A DNA stretch of 10,674 nt from Melioribacteraceae bacterium (GTDB lineage: Bacteria; Bacteroidota; Ignavibacteria; Ignavibacteriales; Melioribacteraceae): contig JALSNL010000216.1 of NCBI GenBank assembly GCA_026987055.1, positions 1-10,674 on the forward strand, in the 5' to 3' direction. The notes beneath the pieces were generated by a model, which had not been told where the DNA came from, did not search any database, and saw only the letters and a program-made list of their open reading frames with translations. Every line of letters starts with the position of its first letter. Within the stretch, counting starts at the first letter, position 1. The translations under genes were made by a program, and so were the position numbers. Positions 801 through 10,674 of the stretch are shown here, piece by piece.

Positions 801-819
801 CACAGATTAGTAATCTGTG
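801..819. repeat. REP-like palindrome 1 (cas1-cas2 gap)
   Basis: CACAGATTAGTAATCTGTG: perfect 9-bp arms around a central G. As RNA it would form an 8-bp stem with a 3-base loop. It starts 8 bases after the cas1 stop and ends 17 bases before the cas2 start. The plus-strand flanks are GTTG on the left and ATACG on the right. No T tract follows it in the direction of transcription, so it does not look like an intrinsic terminator. Confidence 0.95.
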
Positions 820-827
820 ATACGTTT

Positions 828-1910
828 TTACCACCAGATTTTAAATGGCTTATATTCTTTTTCTCCAATAATATGTTTAATAAGCTTGTAACACTCCAAT
901 CTAATAAGATGTCTGTAACTAACAGACCTTTTAAGAGTTCTATGTTTAATTGTTGTTTTCAATTTTTCATCATATTCGCGTAAATATATTTTTCTGCCTT
1001 CTTCGGTTAACAGACAATGGTTAATTTTTTTATCGAAATGTTTTGCTTTAATTTGCTTTTTATTTAGCAGACTAAAAATAATTCTATCCGAAAGCAACGG
1101 TTTAAATATTTCTGCTAAATCCAAAGCTAAAGAAAATCTTCTTTCTCCCGGTTCGTGTAAAAAGCTAATTAATGGATTTAACTGCGTTTTATAAATTTCA
1201 CTTAACACTGTTGTATAAACTAACGAATTACCAAATGATATTAGTGCATTTATTTCATTTGTCGGCGGACGTTTTTCTCTTTTCGAAAAGTTAATCGGTT
1301 CATCTATAATTAAATTCCAAGTAGTATAATATGTTGATCTTATGTTCCCTTCAATACCCATAAGTTCTTGAACATCAGTTGTTTCTTTTATTTGTTTCAT
1401 AAGTTTATCAATCCTTGGAATAAATGGAGACATATCTTTATTGCGCGCGTTATAGTAAAGAAGATTTTTTCTAATGTTATTTGCCGAACCTTCTACAAAT
1501 TTTTGAGCAATTAAAACTCGCAGATTATTGTTAGAATATGAGGCAACCTGTCGTACTAATAGTTTACCGGAAACAAAAGGTTCTCTCGGGTAAAAACTTC
1601 CGCTATAATAACCGTAGTAATTAAAAAGATGTAATGTAATCTGATTTTTGGCAAGAAAGTTCAGAAACTTTGTATTAAATCTAAGTTCACTAAAACAATA
1701 AATTGCTTCTATATCTTCTATTGGTAAAGGTTTGCGTGGAAGCTTTTTGGGCTCATACTCATCTGCAGATTTGTCGTTGGTTTCATCTTCAACTTCAATA
1801 ATATCTTCCTCTGCTTCTACCGGTTCTTCTGCCTTACCGGGTTCAAAATATAGTGTATTTTGTCTACGAATTAACTTTCCGCTGCTGAAAATGTAATAGT
1901 TTCTTTTCAT
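828..1910 (-). CDS. cas1: Cas1, CRISPR integrase, with an acidic insertion
   Basis: This 360-residue Cas1 is the metal-dependent integrase that joins new spacers to the leader end of the array. The N-terminal beta domain starts NYYIFSSGKLIRRQNTLYF and resumes at about residue 63 (IEDIEAIYCF). The catalytic domain has E187 (MGIEGNIRSTYY), H252 (FLHEPGERRFS) and D264/E267 (LALDLAEIFKP), the conserved metal ligands, so the enzyme should be active. Residues about 24-60 are an unusual, strongly acidic and probably disordered segment rich in Glu and Asp, placed between two strands of the N-terminal domain; relatives usually have only a short turn there. This makes the protein longer than the common 320-340 residues. 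GGAAG lies 7 bases before the ATG at 1910. One palindrome separates it from cas4 and another from cas2. Confidence 0.97.
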   Translation of the reverse strand: MKRNYYIFSSGKLIRRQNTLYFEPGKAEEPVEAEEDIIEVEDETNDKSADEYEPKKLPRKPLPIEDIEAIYCFSELRFNTKFLNFLAKNQITLHLFNYYGYYSGSFYPREPFVSGKLLVRQVASYSNNNLRVLIAQKFVEGSANNIRKNLLYYNARNKDMSPFIPRIDKLMKQIKETTDVQELMGIEGNIRSTYYTTWNLIIDEPINFSKREKRPPTNEINALISFGNSLVYTTVLSEIYKTQLNPLISFLHEPGERRFSLALDLAEIFKPLLSDRIIFSLLNKKQIKAKHFDKKINHCLLTEEGRKIYLREYDEKLKTTIKHRTLKRSVSYRHLIRLECYKLIKHIIGEKEYKPFKIWW

Positions 1911-1933
1911 AATATTTCTTCCGGTTTTCGTTG

Positions 1934-1952
1934 CACAGATTAGTAATCTGTG
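1934..1952. repeat. REP-like palindrome 2 (cas4-cas1 gap)
   Basis: Identical in all 19 bases to the copy at 801-819, with the same central G orientation. It lies 22 bases after the cas4 stop and 23 bases before the cas1 ATG. The flanks are TCGTTG and TTACGA. The outermost TCGT/ACGA also pair, so the imperfect inverted repeat reaches about 31 bp (1928-1958). Confidence 0.95.
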
Positions 1953-1974
1953 TTACGATTTAAAGCAACTAGAA

Positions 1975-2457
1975 TTATATGTAACATAAATCATAATACG
2001 AACATTTTTTACAATATGATTTATTAATAACATTCGGTGGTGTTTCTTTCTTTAATATATAATTAATTGAATTATTTATTTCCATTAGTTTTTTCTCATC
2101 TCCAGGATTTAGTTCAACTTCAACCGTTTGCCGGAGTTTCGGATAATCTATCTTACCTTTTACACCGTCAATCCCTTTTTCTTTTAATACCTTTATGTAA
2201 TATTTTACTTGCCAGATATGTGTTTCTTCCATTTTATCGGATTTTTTAACTTCGTGTATCGTTTTGGTTTTCGCATCGTAATTATCAAGCACAATATTAT
2301 CTATACGTATTTCGTGTTTTTTTCGTTGATATGTTGAATCGGATATAAATTTACCCATTGCCACAACATCGCTGTTGTGCTCCATATCTATTTTGTGAGT
2401 GAAAAGCCAAAGTTTTCTCTCACAAATAAAATAATATGCAATTTGAGTTCCTGTCAT
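1975..2457 (-). CDS. cas4: Cas4, RecB-like nuclease with Fe-S cluster cysteines
   Basis: This 160-residue Cas4 is a PD-(D/E)XK nuclease that trims prespacers and helps select those with a correct PAM before Cas1-Cas2 integrates them. The N-terminus GTQIAYYFICERKLWLF carries the first cluster cysteine (C12). The C-terminal cluster cysteines are C149, C152 and C158 (CKKCSYYDLC). The nuclease residues are visible as D53 (RIDNIVLD), E69/K71 (HEVKKS) and Q83 (QVKYYI). All key residues are present and the length is normal for I-B Cas4. The ATG at 2457 has no obvious Shine-Dalgarno site; a palindrome ends only 13 bases upstream. It is separated from cas3, its usual neighbour, by the transposase gene. 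Confidence 0.95.
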   Translation of the reverse strand: MTGTQIAYYFICERKLWLFTHKIDMEHNSDVVAMGKFISDSTYQRKKHEIRIDNIVLDNYDAKTKTIHEVKKSDKMEETHIWQVKYYIKVLKEKGIDGVKGKIDYPKLRQTVEVELNPGDEKKLMEINNSINYILKKETPPNVINKSYCKKCSYYDLCYI

Positions 2458-2470
2458 ATTTAAAACGTAG

Positions 2471-2489
2471 CACAGATTAGTAATCTGTG
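2471..2489. repeat. REP-like palindrome 3 (RAYT-cas4 gap)
   Basis: Identical in all 19 bases and in orientation to the others. The flanks are GTAG and TTAAA. It lies 37 bases after the transposase stop and 13 bases before the cas4 ATG, and marks the downstream side of the transposase gene. Confidence 0.95.
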
Positions 2490-2526
2490 TTAAAAAACCA
2501 GAAAATAGTACAGATAAATTTCTGTA

Positions 2527-3099
2527 TTACAAAACCAAATAATTTTTATTGCAATACGTGTATTCCCAATCAAACCAGTTATTTACCAAACCGGCTTTTA
2601 CCGGATTTTCCAAAACATATTTTATTGTAAAATAAAGTTCTTTCTCATTTCTAATCCACCTATCAAAACTTTCATCTTGCCAAAAAGAACCCTCGCGTTG
2701 TAAAAACAGGTTTGATTTTCTTGCGGATATTCGTTTAATAGATTGCATTATTTTACTTATACCTTTATTACCCGATAGTAATTCAAAAACCAGGTGGATA
2801 TGATTAGGCATAATTGTATAACAAATTAAATTATAATCTTTGCCATCGGGATAGTGCAAAGTGTTTTTACAAACATCCGCTATATCTTTTTCTGCTAAAT
2901 ATTGCTTTCCGTATTCTCCACTGTCTAAAACCGAATCATATTTTTTGATAATTCGTTCGTATTTTGTGTTGTCTAAATTTTTCAAATCGGAATGAATTAT
3001 TTTAAGTAATGTTTGCGGTATAGAATTCTTTAACCGGTATGTAATAAAATACATTCCGTCGTTAAAATATAAATGCGGTAAGTTGCGTTTGTGTAACAT
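2527..3099 (-). CDS. REP-associated tyrosine transposase (RAYT, Y1 HUH family)
   Basis: This 190-residue protein is a full-length RAYT (TnpA_REP), a single-strand DNA endonuclease related to IS200/IS605 transposases. The HUH metal motif is H100-I-H102 in YTIMPNHIHLVFELL. The catalytic Tyr is probably Y161 in YVLENPVKAGLV, the signature block of the family. FWQDESFDRWI (139-149) is the other conserved block. The N-terminal YFITYRL strand is also typical. No frameshift or stop is seen, so it may be active. The family nicks and joins DNA at REP hairpins and is mostly single-copy and vertically kept rather than self-transposing like an IS. It lies in the cas operon in the same direction, 42 bp downstream of cas3. 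There is no clear Shine-Dalgarno site at the ATG at 3099, so expression may be low or depend on readthrough. Confidence 0.94.
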   Translation of the reverse strand: MLHKRNLPHLYFNDGMYFITYRLKNSIPQTLLKIIHSDLKNLDNTKYERIIKKYDSVLDSGEYGKQYLAEKDIADVCKNTLHYPDGKDYNLICYTIMPNHIHLVFELLSGNKGISKIMQSIKRISARKSNLFLQREGSFWQDESFDRWIRNEKELYFTIKYVLENPVKAGLVNNWFDWEYTYCNKNYLVL

Positions 3100-3113
3100 A
3101 ATATTATTTGTTG

Positions 3114-3132
3114 CACAGATTAGTAATCTGTG
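3114..3132. repeat. REP-like palindrome 4 (cas3-RAYT gap)
   Basis: Identical in all 19 bases and in orientation to the other copies. The flanks are GTTG and CTATG. It starts 9 bases after the cas3 stop and ends 14 bases before the transposase ATG, and marks the upstream side of the transposase gene. Confidence 0.95.
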
Positions 3133-3141
3133 CTATGTTGT

Positions 3142-5767
3142 TTAAATAAACGGATTATATTCGGGGAAATCATATTTTAGTATTCCCGTTTCTTCATCAT
3201 ATTCAGTTTTTACAATAAAAATATTACGGCACCATTTATTTATTAGTTTTTCTTGATGATTATCAAAATTATTTTCGTTATTAACTAACTGATAACTAAG
3301 TCGAATATCCTCGCGAAATCTAATTTCGTCGTATTTCCATTTTGGGAAATAAACATTTACAACAAATCTGTTTAAAATTACTTTTTTGAATTTAACATAA
3401 AGGTTTTTGTTATCTGAGTTCTTTTCGAAAAATTCATTTATGCTTTTTATCAGTTCTTCAAGTTTTGTTTTGGGGATAACGGAAATACTGGAAATTTCTC
3501 TGAATATTCTATGTGCTTCATCTTTTCTTTCCGCCATAAAACCCGAATCAAGTATATCAAGTGTTTTGTAAAAAGTTGTCAGATAACTTTCCGAAACTGC
3601 AAATATTTTAGGATTATAAAGTTTTTTAACAAGTTCTTTCTTTTCTAATTCGGATAATATCAAAGCCTCGGGCTCAAGTTTTTTTATTGTTTTAAAAAAT
3701 TCATCAACCGTTTTTTTGTTTCGCCAATCTTTTGATTTTTTCTTGTATTTCCCGTTTTTATCCAACCATTTGTCTGTTTCTAAATCACTTTCAGTTTTTG
3801 AGAAGAGTTTTAATGAAATTTCAATAAGATCATTCGAATAAACATTGTTCCCACCCGATTCAATTCCATTTTCAAAAATCGTTACGAAAACATTAGGGCT
3901 CTCCAAATTACTCGGCGATTCGGTTTTATAACGTCTCAAGACTCGTCCCATTCTTTGAACTAAAGAATCGATCGGCACAAATTCCGTATATAAAATATCC
4001 GCATCCAAATCCAATGATGCTTCAACTACTTGTGTAGCAACAACAATTTTGGGTATATTTTCGTCCAAAGGTTTTGGATTTGAGAATTCTTTAACTATTA
4101 AATTTTCTTTTTCTTTTCTTTTTTCGTATGTTAATCTGGAATGTAATAGTTCAACAAACATCTTTTCACCAACGTTTTTCTTAATTTTATCAAACACATC
4201 AACAGCAAGTTTTACTGTATTAACAACTACCAAGACTCGCTGTCCATTGTTTTCATAAGATTTATCAATTATTTCGTCTATAATTTTATAATATTCAAAT
4301 TCATTTTCATTGTTTTTAATTTTAATAAATTTCAGTTTATGTTTTTTTATGGATGAATAATCAACTTCTGTAGCTTTATCGTAATAGTCAATCAATTCGA
4401 AATCTTTTTCCCCGACTTCATCTTTAATTCTGTTCTTCAATTCTTCCCGAATAAAATCAGGCATTGTTGCAGTTATCAATAAAAATTTGCCACCCATTTT
4501 ATAAATATCTTGTAGATATCTCACTATTATTGCTGCAGCTTTTGGATCATAAGCTTGCACTTCGTCAATTACCAAACGTGAGTAAGAAAAAGTTGCATAA
4601 ATTTTTTCATAAGAAGGCGGACGCAAAGCATAAGGGAAAAACTGATCGCCAGTAGAAACCATAAACGGATAACTTAATTGTCTTGCAAGATAATAAGATT
4701 TTAAGTTTTCCGTTTCGTTTCCGTCTCCCAATAAATAAACATCGGCATCGGAATGAAGCAAGCCCACTCTTTCATCTTCATCATTAAATAATTGTTGTGA
4801 ACGTTCGAATATTTGATTTACCGCGGAACGCAACGGCAATGTATAGAACGTTTTTTCACCTTTGGACCAGATGTAAGAAAATTCTGTTTTGCCGCTACCC
4901 GTTGGTGCAACTAAAATTACATTTTTTTCACTTAATTTTTTTTCTTCTATTAATTTTACCTGCCAAATCTTTTTTTCGTCATCCAAGTTAAATTTATCTT
5001 TTAGTTTGCTTTTAATTTTTTCGTATTCAATTCCTTTAAATTCAATCGGTTGTTCGTAATTATTCTCACTTTCACAGAAAGAAGCAAAATGATCGCATCG
5101 AATTAAAAATCCAGATAATTTTACCCAATCAACTAAGTTTACTTTTTCGAATGAAATACGCTTCGGTAACCAGTACAAACTGTAAGGCGGAATAGCATAG
5201 TCCTCGATTTGTGCACCGTTAATAATTTCCGTCAACATGGTTTTGTCGAATTTAATAAGTTCTGCATAACCATTAAAAAAATCTCTAAGTTCTTCTTTAA
5301 GATTTTTTTCAATTTCGGATTGCAAATTTTCATTAAGCAAATTTTCGATTTCGTCAATTGAATATCGAATTACTTCTTCAAAATTATTACGCCAATGATG
5401 ATAAGCAACAGCAGACAAAACAAATTGCTTGTACTCTTTTGCATCTTCCGGATAAATTTGTTTAATCTTTTCTTCCAATTTTATTTTATCGATTAAGAAT
5501 AGCGAGAAAATAGAATGGGGCAAATTTGTAGAAATTTCAAAAGGACAGTAATTTTTATTTCCTAAAGTTCTAATTTGAAAATAGGGTAAGGCTTTACCCA
5601 AGTCATGTAAAATAACAGCAATTTTTATGAGTTCGTATAATTTATTATCACCTATGAATGTTTTAATTTCATTTATGTTCCTTAAAATATCTTCGATATG
5701 TTGAAGAAGTGAAATACCGTTTTTATTATTTTCATTTGCACTTTTTGCCCAAATTTTTGCTTCAATG

Positions 5768-5775
<8 letters not shown>
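3142..5775 (-). CDS. cas3: Cas3, HD nuclease fused to SF2 helicase
   Basis: This 877-residue Cas3 is the effector recruited by Cascade to unwind and degrade target DNA. The N-terminal HD nuclease domain spans about 1-235, with H26, H57-D58 (VILHDLGK), H87 and H126-H127 (AYHHWR). The helicase has Walker A APTGSGKTE (290-298), the DEVQ box (404-407, in place of the commoner DEAH), TAT (435-437), motif V VVATQVVEASLDLD (578-591) and motif VI QRMGRVLRR (607-615). All key residues are present and HD and helicase are in one chain, as usual for I-B. The C-terminal region after about 620 is the accessory domain and is less conserved. It overlaps the end of cas5 by 8 bases, with GGGTGA before its ATG, so translation is probably coupled. 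It is the last gene of the tightly packed interference block. Confidence 0.97.
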
Positions 5776-8506
<2,731 letters not shown>

Positions 8507-8508
8507 TT

Positions 8509-9615
8509 TTATCTCCTCTTAATTTTATCTTCAATTAACGAATACAATTTTAATATCTTGTTAGCCGTGTTTTTCAAATGGTTACGATTTTTTTGTAAGA
8601 ATAAAGTATTGTTAATATAATTTTGTTCGCTTTTGTTTAATTGGTCTTTTATTGAAAGTCTCAAAAATTTCTGAGCAAGATCAATTAAGTCGGAATATTT
8701 TTCGTCAAGAATTTTATTGTAAATATTGTATTCTCCTAAGTCCGATAAAATTGATGCAATTTGTCTGTCCGTAATAATCTTTACAACATTATACGGCAAT
8801 GTAAAATATTCAATGCTTTTATTCTTTTTAGTAATAATTTCTATGTTCATTCCACTCCATATTCCAAGAGAAGTTTGAATTTTATTTGCATATTCTATGA
8901 CCGTAGTTGCAAGAATTTCTCGTTTTGTACGATTCTCGATTTTACTATTAGCGCCAAAGGATTCTTTCACGAATTTGTTGAGTTCGTACATTACTTTAAA
9001 CGAAGGGGCGTTGATAAAAATTTCGGAAAAATCTGATAACGTTGTTAAGCCGAGATGGTGGTGAATTAAAATAATGGAACAGACGGGACAAACGTAAGTT
9101 GAAGTGTTAAAGTTCCAAAATCCGTTTGGGAATAAGGATTGAGCTCCACCTAGCTGTTTATCAAATTTATTAGAGAATTCATTAATTCCATAATAGAAAG
9201 TGTCAAAATCATTATTTCTCTCACTCCAAACCTTATTCAACGTTTTTAGTCTTTCTTTTGAAAAACCTAAATTACTTGAACAAATAGAACAATTTTTTTT
9301 CGTTTTTTTTATTCTCTTAATTGATTTCAAATAAAGATGAAAGTTATTTTTGTCTTGTATCCGAGATGAATTTATAAAATTTGGATACAGATTTGATTTA
9401 CCTACGATTGAAACTTTTAATGTTTTCTCTTGTCCGAAAAAGCGACGATTAACATCAATAAAATCAAAATACCGTTCGGGTAACTCTGCTGTATTTCCAC
9501 TAAAACTTATCTTATTTATTCCTTCTAAAACATCCAATAATTTTAATCCAACTACTCCGGCGTTATATAACCAATTAGATGGAAAAAGTATTATTTTATT
9601 ATTTTCTTTAATCAT
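8509..9615 (-). CDS. cas8: Cas8, large Cascade subunit of the CXXC-CXXC (Cst1) type
   Basis: This 368-residue protein is the likely large subunit, which recognises the PAM and opens target DNA. The N-terminus FPSNWLYNAGVVGLKLL (11-27) is characteristic of the Cst1 group. Two CXXC pairs, C109/C112 (NCSICSS) and C176/C179 (VCPVCS), 67 residues apart, fit the 'CXXC-CXXC region' family (TIGR01908) and probably bind zinc. The basic C-terminus (NRNHLKNTANKILKLYSLIEDKIKRR) ends early compared with typical longer members, and the missing helical part may be the separate ORF that follows. The start overlaps the cas6 stop as ATGA, with GGAGGTG 5 bases upstream. The assignment rests on the motifs and on its place between cas6 and cas7. 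Confidence 0.8.
   Translation of the reverse strand: MIKENNKIILFPSNWLYNAGVVGLKLLDVLEGINKISFSGNTAELPERYFDFIDVNRRFFGQEKTLKVSIVGKSNLYPNFINSSRIQDKNNFHLYLKSIKRIKKTKKNCSICSSNLGFSKERLKTLNKVWSERNNDFDTFYYGINEFSNKFDKQLGGAQSLFPNGFWNFNTSTYVCPVCSIILIHHHLGLTTLSDFSEIFINAPSFKVMYELNKFVKESFGANSKIENRTKREILATTVIEYANKIQTSLGIWSGMNIEIITKKNKSIEYFTLPYNVVKIITDRQIASILSDLGEYNIYNKILDEKYSDLIDLAQKFLRLSIKDQLNKSEQNYINNTLFLQKNRNHLKNTANKILKLYSLIEDKIKRR
8513..8517 (-). promoter_or_regulatory. ribosome-binding site of the small subunit candidate, inside the end of cas8
   Basis: AGGAG on the minus strand falls in the last codons of cas8, 6 bases before the ATG at 8506. The cas8 stop (8509-8511) and this ATG are 2 bases apart and in different frames. 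The site supports a real, translationally coupled gene start rather than a broken cas8. Confidence 0.8.
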
Positions 9616-9627
9616 TTCACCACCTCC
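9612..9627 (-). promoter_or_regulatory. cas6-cas8 coupled junction with strong ribosome-binding site
   Basis: GGAGGTG (plus 9621-9627) lies 5 bases before the cas8 ATG. The cas8 start and the cas6 stop share the bases ATGA (9615-9612), a typical arrangement for translational coupling. Confidence 0.85.
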
Positions 9628-10307
9628 AACATTCCAAAACCTTGAGAACGATGAACACCAATGCCAACATCATAAACCATTTGTAAAATTTCTTCATCGG
9701 CTTTTAATTTAAAAAGACCTTTATTCGTCGGCATCTTCTGATAATGATAAATAGGAAGTTTTCTCATTTGAATCGGCTCAAATTCAACATTAGTTACTTC
9801 TGTTATATTTAAAAATTCTTTCGCACATTCTTTGATTGAGAATATTAAGCCTTCGTAAAATCCTTCTTCTTCGGGCCAAAGAAATTTGTTTGAATCTCCC
9901 TTATTATTTACAAGAAATGGAGAAAGAGTTTTAAATATTTTTTCGGTTCCGTATATTTTATAAGGTGGATGAAGTGTTACATTTTTCAATTTTAGAACAT
10001 TATCGAATAATCGATATTCATCTATATTATGAAAACTGTTGTAAATATAGGTTATCAATTCATGATTGTTCGAAGAGAAATTTAATTTGACTTTTGTACC
10101 TACTTTTAACAAATTTCCTTCATCTCCATATAATTCTGGGAAGTAAACACCAAATGTAAATGGCTTTAGTTTATGTTGATTATAAAAAGTATTGAATAAG
10201 TTTTTATTTGCCAATTCAAATGATGCTTTTATAAGGGATATAAATCCTCTAAGATAATCTCTTGGTAATTTATCTCCACTCATTTCATAATTAATAGTTA
10301 ATCTCAT
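9612..10307 (-). CDS. cas6: Cas6, pre-crRNA endoribonuclease
   Basis: This 231-residue RAMP endonuclease cuts the pre-crRNA within each repeat, leaving an 8-nt 5' handle. The C-terminal glycine-rich loop is GIGVHRSQGFGMLEV (215-229), the best hallmark of Cas6. The N-terminus (MRLTINYEMS, then LPRDYLRGFISLIKASFE) fits the first RAMP strand and helix. H45 (YNQHKLKPFTFGVYFPEL) is a candidate catalytic histidine, but I cannot confirm it without alignment. Length is normal and no damage is seen. GAGGTG lies 5 bases before the ATG at 10307. It begins 29 bp after the stop of the truncated cas6-like remnant and overlaps cas8 by 4 bases (ATGA), so it leads the interference block. Confidence 0.92.
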   Translation of the reverse strand: MRLTINYEMSGDKLPRDYLRGFISLIKASFELANKNLFNTFYNQHKLKPFTFGVYFPELYGDEGNLLKVGTKVKLNFSSNNHELITYIYNSFHNIDEYRLFDNVLKLKNVTLHPPYKIYGTEKIFKTLSPFLVNNKGDSNKFLWPEEEGFYEGLIFSIKECAKEFLNITEVTNVEFEPIQMRKLPIYHYQKMPTNKGLFKLKADEEILQMVYDVGIGVHRSQGFGMLEVVK

Positions 10308-10336: not shown

Positions 10337-10669
10337 TTAATAGTTAAAGCAATTAATATTTAATATATTTTTCTCAATCTTCTGCTCTTCAAATATTCCA
10401 ATCATAAAATTTTGTATAAACTCTTTAACAAGTGGGGAAGAAATCACTAAGCTGGCTTTCGGCTCAAGTAGCTTAATTATTTGGCTTTCAATGCTAAACT
10501 TCTCAAATCTTAATGCAAAGGAAAAAAGTTTATATGTTTTACCTGTTTGTTTATAGCCTTTTGAGTGCAAAAATTCTGCAAATTCTTTTGAACCGAACCG
10601 GAGTAATTTATAAACTGCAGCTGCTAAAGGATAATAATAATTAGGTGTTATTCGATTTGTATTTACCAC
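10337..10669 (-). pseudogene. N-terminal remnant of a second, different cas6
   Basis: The 110 readable residues match the N-terminal half of a Cas6 from a different branch than the intact gene downstream. Family blocks are YYYPLAAAVYKLLRFGS, EFAEFLHSKGYKQTGKTYKL (with H35, a likely catalytic His) and PLVKEFIQNFMIGIFEEQKI. A full protein of this kind is about 240-270 residues, and the C-terminal RAMP half with its glycine-rich loop is missing. Reading stops at 10337 after an unrelated-looking tail (NILNINCFNY). The missing half is not found before the intact cas6, which starts 29 bp further on. The apparent start is a GTG at 10669 at the window edge, inside a likely palindrome, and the first RAMP strand also seems absent, so the 5' end may be damaged too. 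The frame is still open at the edge, so an upstream start cannot be excluded. Confidence 0.7.
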
Positions 10670-10674
10670 AGATT
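10667..10674. repeat. probable left half of a fifth palindrome, cut by the window edge
   Basis: CACAGATT at the very end equals the first 8 bases of the 19-bp palindrome. The preceding TTTAC resembles the reverse complement of the right-hand flanks of the other copies (for example TTTAA before CACAGATT for the copy at 2471). If it is a copy, it would be in the opposite orientation. Only 8 bases are visible, so this is tentative. Confidence 0.45.

Follow-up and report, generated by a model that had tools for sequence, protein, structure and literature searches.

In a REPtron, the gene for a repetitive extragenic palindromic (REP)-associated tyrosine transposase (RAYT) is accompanied by REP sequences, which are short non-autonomous mobile repeats. 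REPtron Sm of Stenotrophomonas maltophilia, with a group 3 TnpA-REP, has perfect 8-bp palindromes with a 3-nt loop and a GTAG tag directly before the palindrome (PMC8266576), and in the Marinomonas REPtrons Ma and Mb the REPs crowd round their own RAYT, which was read as recent arrival plus local multiplication (PMC8266576). Two other described groups are TIRtrons, in which Y1-like genes (TIRYTs) are accompanied by longer palindromes (PMC3733652), and REPINs/BIMEs, in which REP units form inverted pairs (PMC3116915). Here we analysed a 10,674-nt stretch of DNA, one whole contig of a Melioribacteraceae bacterium (JALSNL010000216.1, assembly GCA_026987055.1; hereafter the window), in which four copies of a 19-bp palindrome lie round a RAYT gene (2527–3099, minus strand) among the adaptation genes of a type I-B cas operon. 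The palindromes are very probably REPs of this RAYT, the two together forming a REPtron in the adaptation half of the operon.

The four palindromes, all read on the plus strand, are located at 801–819 (copy 1, cas1-cas2 junction), 1934–1952 (copy 2, cas4-cas1), 2471–2489 (copy 3, RAYT-cas4) and 3114–3132 (copy 4, cas3-RAYT). The original prediction, which had described them as identical, co-oriented and present once per adaptation junction, was exact in these respects and in their spacing: they begin 8, 22, 37 and 9 bases past the upstream stop and end 17, 23, 13 and 14 bases ahead of the next start, in gaps of 44, 64, 69 and 42 bp, respectively. It also held that the interference block has no copy, and none was found at its junctions or in the gap between orf110 and cas6. 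Each palindrome has an 8-bp perfect stem and a 3-nt loop, and the likeness between copies extends past the 19 bp on the plus strand, with a tag directly 5' of the palindrome (GTTG in 3/4 copies, at 797–800, 1930–1933 and 3110–3113; GTAG in 1/4, at 2467–2470) and N-TA after it. Copies 3 and 4 flank the RAYT gene, as the 20–40-bp palindromic repeats of a REPtron do. The 19-mer was absent from 200 dinucleotide shuffles even at up to 3 mismatches, and a chance origin of the four copies was rejected; CRISPR repeats were likewise rejected as their identity, the array repeat at 1–402 being a different sequence.

The window thus shares with REPtron Sm the perfect 8-bp palindromes, the 3-nt loop length and the tag directly 5', and differs from it in having mostly GTTG tags, another loop, few copies and a seat inside a cas operon. 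Unlike the repeats of TIRtrons, those of the window are short and tagged, which is the REP type. As with REPINs and BIMEs, REP units occur with a RAYT, but the four copies are singles in one orientation and not inverted pairs. The one inverse sequence lies 7.5 kb off, where the last 8 bases of the contig (10667–10674, minus strand, upstream of orf110, as read from the sequence) are the half palindrome CACAGATT. Because the contig ends in this half palindrome, a fifth copy, inverted relative to the other four, probably stands upstream of orf110, and therefore no claim can be made that the 5' end of the operon is free of copies.

A count across the genome of the same bacterium (G000; 2.35 Mb in 458 contigs, 68.6% complete) placed the exact 19-mer at these four sites only, all within 2.3 kb. 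Allowing up to 3 mismatches added three sites, AACAGATTAGTAATCTGTT twice and AACAGATTAGTAATCCGTT once, and no RAYT match was found at these near-palindromes (L147–L149); the 12-mer CACAGATTASTA occurs at two more places (L195 and L196), neither of them within 3 mismatches of the 19-mer. With four exact copies, all local, a REP family dispersed through this genome was rejected for the 68.6% complete assembly. The many dispersed copies that usually mark REPs were thus not found in it; wide genomic dispersal is reported as usual, not universal (PMC8266576). The crowding of REPs round their own RAYT resembles that in Marinomonas; unlike there, the linkage of the window RAYT to cas4 is common to another genus (G010, described below).

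The 190-aa product of the transposase gene matched NCBIfam NF047646 (REP_Tyr_transpos) at 84.0 bits against a cut-off of 80, and also matched Pfam Y1_Tnp and the TnpA-REP structure 4er8 (E 9e-7). Its HUH and tyrosine columns, the latter with the presumed catalytic residue, are intact and invariant in alignment A1. A search of 58 genomes gave RAYT matches in 24, the window's own genome included, and we read the neighbourhoods of 12 homologues (3.8–19.5 kb) and of a second Y1 gene of G000 (9.2 kb). At least two palindromes of one family stood at the gene in 11 of these 13 RAYT loci. The nearest homologues (G057, G010 and G018; 60–63% identity) have palindromes with a CACAGA(C/T)T core and GTAG tags round their RAYTs, the four nearest RAYTs have the CACAGA core in common, and more distant ones have other palindrome families, so the palindrome sequence varies with RAYT lineage; palindromes of the same build also surround RAYTs outside cas operons. 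A co-oriented REP lies upstream of the RAYT start at 14 nt in the window, 23 nt in G010, 28 nt in G057 and about 86 nt in G018. The copies near the RAYT amounted to 4/4 in G000, 8/14 in G057 and 3/5 in G010, and for another palindrome family to 9/24 in G331. At two loci (L138, 9015–10497; L040, 8663–9863), two palindrome families alternate at regular spacing round one RAYT, as if it served both, and an IMG/VR viral contig (L225, 4027–4053) carries GTAGCACAGATTACTAATCTGTGCTAC, in which the repeat is fully symmetrical and has a tag on either side.

We next consider how often such genes occur beside cas1. The sample drew on two sources: 77 public loci that a scan of genome contigs for Cas1 had given, and 296 genomes of the phylum, of which 55 had 57 Cas1 places between them; 43 of these places were used (the window's own place and the 13 weakest were left out). 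With the window added and 4 duplicates removed, it comprised 117 distinct cas1 loci. The interval scanned ran from cas3 to cas1, or over the 3 kb upstream of cas1 in the 19/117 loci with no same-strand upstream Cas3 match; lengths of the cas3-cas4 gap, being measured from truncated Cas3 matches, were left out of account. A RAYT/Y1-like gene was present in the interval of 16 of the 117 loci, always on the cas1 strand: the window, L036, L040, L042, L067, L072, L076, L078, L079, L081, L082, L083, L089, L158 (two pieces), L160 and L161. Three Y1 matches fell outside it (L042 at 2218, L052 and L176). The interval makes up 18% of the bases and holds 17 of the 20 matches, the broken L158 gene being counted as two pieces (binomial p 1.5e-10), and repeated palindromes were found in the interval of 14/16 loci with a RAYT/Y1-like gene versus 3/101 without one (Fisher p 1.7e-13); both p values overstate the evidence, since cas1 loci are related. 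The L089 gene, a threshold match (E 8e-4), and the second L042 gene both resemble ordinary IS200 transposases in our judgement. One of the profiles, hidden Markov model g2, was built from eight RAYT-like rows of cas1 loci and favours their kin.

For background, alignment A1 gave 74 matches, fragments included, in 15 genomes (~67 Mb), and Pfam Y1_Tnp gave 45 in ten of these genomes (~47 Mb). A density of 1–2 per Mb predicts ~0.35–0.66 genes in the 0.32 Mb of intervals where 16 were seen, an enrichment of roughly 25- to 45-fold that is rough in two respects: all 15 background genomes were chosen for having such a gene, and the background count used E 1e-5 and alignment A1 (13/16 rows from cas loci), whereas the interval scan used E 1e-3 and other models. 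In a phylogeny of 48 RAYT-like proteins, a minimum of 6 changes explains the cas label, compared with a mean of 13.7 after shuffling, so that cas linkage is clustered, with several gains or losses; L042:2218 and L052:173, cas-locus genes that lie outside cas3–cas1, carry this label, and L083, L089, L158 and the second L042 gene do not. The Y1-like genes of L067, L072, L076, L079, L081 and L082, with their longer palindromes, resemble TIRtrons (PMC3733652). In five of these loci, long palindromes of the flanking family stand inside Y1-like frames that are still open (L072 9065, L079 8795, L067 8959, L081 7426 and L082 8896), and they seem to be in-frame insertions into their own transposase gene. 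A second case of one palindrome per gap was seen at L186 (G161), where three identical copies of GGACGCAAAGCTTGCGTCC (10051, 10982 and 11807) occupy successive gaps just upstream of cas1 without a resident transposase, no Y1-like gene being present in the interval.

The RAYTs of the window, G010 and G057 form a clade (support 99/93). The G010 operon, an orthologue of that in the window, reads orf110, cas6, cas8, the 158-aa open reading frame (ORF), cas7, cas5, cas3, REP, a TumE toxin-like gene, REP, RAYT, REPs and cas4, followed by the contig end, with the RAYT placed as in the window. In G057, a 38-aa piece of cas4 (60.5% identity, E 3e-9) comes after the RAYT and its REPs, and it was the one cas match in the 19 kb covered. 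Between the window and G010, identity is 63% for the RAYT, 67% for Cas3 and 62% for Cas4. The RAYT-cas4 linkage therefore looks old, and older than the four identical copies, because it is common to another genus, and the four copies look either recent or kept identical. A Cas3/Cas4 tree of five orthologous operons is compatible with G000 and G010 being sisters or not, so that the RAYT may have been gained once or lost several times. Three of the orthologous operons (L027, L152 and L155) are free of a RAYT; no repeated palindromes were found in their adaptation halves, which carry other, unrelated insertions. In L027, the cas4-cas1 and cas1-cas2 gaps (5147–5515 and 6735–7100) each hold a 121–122-aa ORF flanked by repeats of the CACGGATT/CACAGATT type, and by eye these ORFs look like GxxExxY proteins.

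How would a REPtron give one copy per junction? By analogy with published work on other TnpA-REPs, the RAYT would recognise the single-stranded tagged hairpin, cleave beside it and join the excised repeat to other single-stranded DNA, with new copies landing mostly nearby. Copies that broke a gene would be lost and those between adaptation genes kept, and such loss would leave each adaptation junction with a single copy and the overlapping interference genes with none. At four of the five interference junctions (−8, −20, 17, 2 and −4 bp) the genes overlap or touch, and an insertion there would break a gene or its coupling; just two junctions on the interference side, the one of 17 bp and the orf110-cas6 gap of 29 bp, could take a copy, which is too few to argue from. 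A function of the hairpins specific to cas genes is not needed for this explanation. The label "REP-like" in the original prediction was apt, given the RAYT, the REP anatomy and the clustering of palindromes round related RAYTs. Its suggestion of a special link to the operon stands in part. Within the assembled genome sequence no exact copy lies outside this operon, and operons at large do not carry the repeat in most of their gaps. Yet the repeats are linked to the RAYT, not to the cas genes as such, because they follow the presence of a RAYT/Y1-like gene at cas1 loci and differ in sequence with the RAYT, and because RAYTs that lie outside cas operons are surrounded by palindromes of the same build. 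The neutral alternative offered with it, that these gaps are simply the only ones able to hold an insertion, is compatible with the data, except that the 17- and 29-bp gaps could also have held one.

Several observations weigh against the assignment to a REPtron. Among the RAYT neighbourhoods, a single palindrome was seen at the RAYT of L143 and none at that of L144, a contig of 3.8 kb, and in G018 only 2/19 copies are near it. At cas1 loci, L049, L065 and L186 have repeated interval palindromes without a Y1-like gene, and L089 and L161 have a Y1-like gene without them. With a GTTG tag, the S. maltophilia enzyme still bound the repeat but no longer cleaved it (PMC8266576); because 3/4 tags in the window are GTTG, the copies may be immobile now, or this RAYT may differ from that enzyme. 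Mobility of the repeats is a prediction from sequence. Among the relatives no clean empty site was found, and the cas1-cas2 spacing is 1–2 nt in 5 of 13 relatives listed (L028, L031, L033, L034 and L155) and 25 to 710 bp in others, so that we cannot say whether the repeat made that gap.

Beyond the REPtron itself, it is unlikely that RAYT/TIRYT genes are recurrent working passengers of type I-B adaptation modules in Bacteroidota/Ignavibacteria, aiding spacer acquisition or mobilising the adaptation cassette. If they were, an HUH transposase beside cas4 would have its hairpin sites interspersed among the adaptation genes, it might supply or trim single-stranded or hairpin prespacers as a part of spacer acquisition, and REP transposition and CRISPR integration would share one transcription unit. 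It is genomic association that would suggest a role of the RAYT in adaptation. Unlikely, too, is the reading in which the RAYT is a domesticated working part of adaptation, for example by processing hairpin or single-stranded DNA that Cas4-Cas1-Cas2 would use, with the REPs as its kept sites. The 16/117 loci with such genes on the cas1 strand, the same placement in G010, the cas4 remnant beside the G057 RAYT and the retained HUH and tyrosine positions are in its favour, but most loci, including the orthologous operons L027, L152 and L155, have no RAYT, the linkage is patchy on the tree (the at least 6 changes given above), and other unrelated insertions also sit in these adaptation junctions. 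The same-strand bias is moreover expected anyway if opposite-strand insertions into operons are lost; among non-cas control RAYTs, both neighbours were on the gene's own strand in 12 of the 27 for which both are known.

The proposal that the palindromes are selected RNA hairpins, which in the polycistronic message set the levels of RAYT, Cas4, Cas1 and Cas2 through processing, 3'-end protection or start masking, is very unlikely. It draws on the presence of one copy at each adaptation junction 13–23 nt before a start, on published REPs that can act on messages (PMC8266576), and on a 109-nt fold in which the cas1 start codon pairs with bases 1955–1957 directly beside the repeat. In the 109-nt folds all four start codons are paired, those of cas2 and cas4 with downstream sequence and that of the RAYT with 3157–3159, but the repeat pairs with nothing outside itself, no start codon included, and its stem is weak as RNA (−7.0 kcal/mol for the 19-mer). 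The same build is found round RAYTs outside cas operons, and the RAYT-free orthologous operons have no repeated palindromes at these places. A weak message-strand T-run follows copy 3 only; intrinsic terminators were rejected, with a weak message-strand call at copy 3 only, opposite-strand calls at copies 1 and 4 and neither at copy 2. Operator sites for a regulator protein controlling the operon, suggested by perfect dyads of operator-like length and by the probable fifth half-site upstream of the first gene, were considered and rejected as highly improbable, since the palindromes lie at internal junctions and not at promoters, palindromes of this type also occur round RAYTs at other places, and family profile scans recognised no separate regulator gene in the window.

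All genes of the window are on the minus strand, and profile matches upheld the earlier names Cas2, Cas1, Cas4, Y1 transposase/RAYT and Cas3. The end of a CRISPR array, read from the sequence, lies at 1–402, and its repeat is unlike the palindrome. It is followed by cas2 (520–783, ATG at 783; PF09827, TIGR01573; 520–795 was used in the family scans), type I-B cas1 (828–1910; PF01867, TIGR03641), cas4 (1975–2457; PF01930, TIGR00372), the RAYT gene and cas3 (3142–5775). The interference genes are type I-B cas5 (5768–6577; TIGR01895), cas7 of the Cst2/DevR type (6558–8012; TIGR02585), a 158-aa ORF (8030–8506), a cas8-like gene (Cas_CXXC_CXXC, 8509–9615; PF09706, 26.3 bits, cut-off 21) and cas6 (9612–10307; PF01881). 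The 158-aa ORF had no family match in the profile scans and is kept in orthologous operons; judged by its position, it is presumably the small subunit. The first gene, orf110 (10337–10672), is open at the contig end and has a weak likeness to a Cas6 N-terminal domain (PF21350, 26.7 bits, below the cut-off of 27) although cas6 comes next; many cas1 loci gave matches to homologues of it. Read in frame with cas2 and the RAYT (784–834 and 3100–3132), the repeat stays open and would encode HRLLICAT before each ATG; a gene caller could place the cas2 start at GTG 834.

These results indicate that the palindromes are of an ordinary mobile-repeat kind in an unusual place, and they explain a pattern that resembles operon-wide regulation. 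RAYTs in cas operons were not reported in the literature that we searched, which included PMC12669027, PMC10910872 and PMC5704561 by term and mostly excluded subscription literature; the recurrent RAYT/TIRYT/Y1 genes with palindromes in adaptation modules, unreported within that literature, deserve follow-up. Their address is notable, as genes for HUH single-strand transposases adjoin cas4/cas1 on the cas strand in 16/117 loci and the lineage of the window RAYT occupies the same position in a second genus. An origin of CRISPRs from REPIN-like elements was raised as a speculation by Bertels and Rainey (PMC3116915), and the presence of both machineries in one operon makes a functional or evolutionary link testable.

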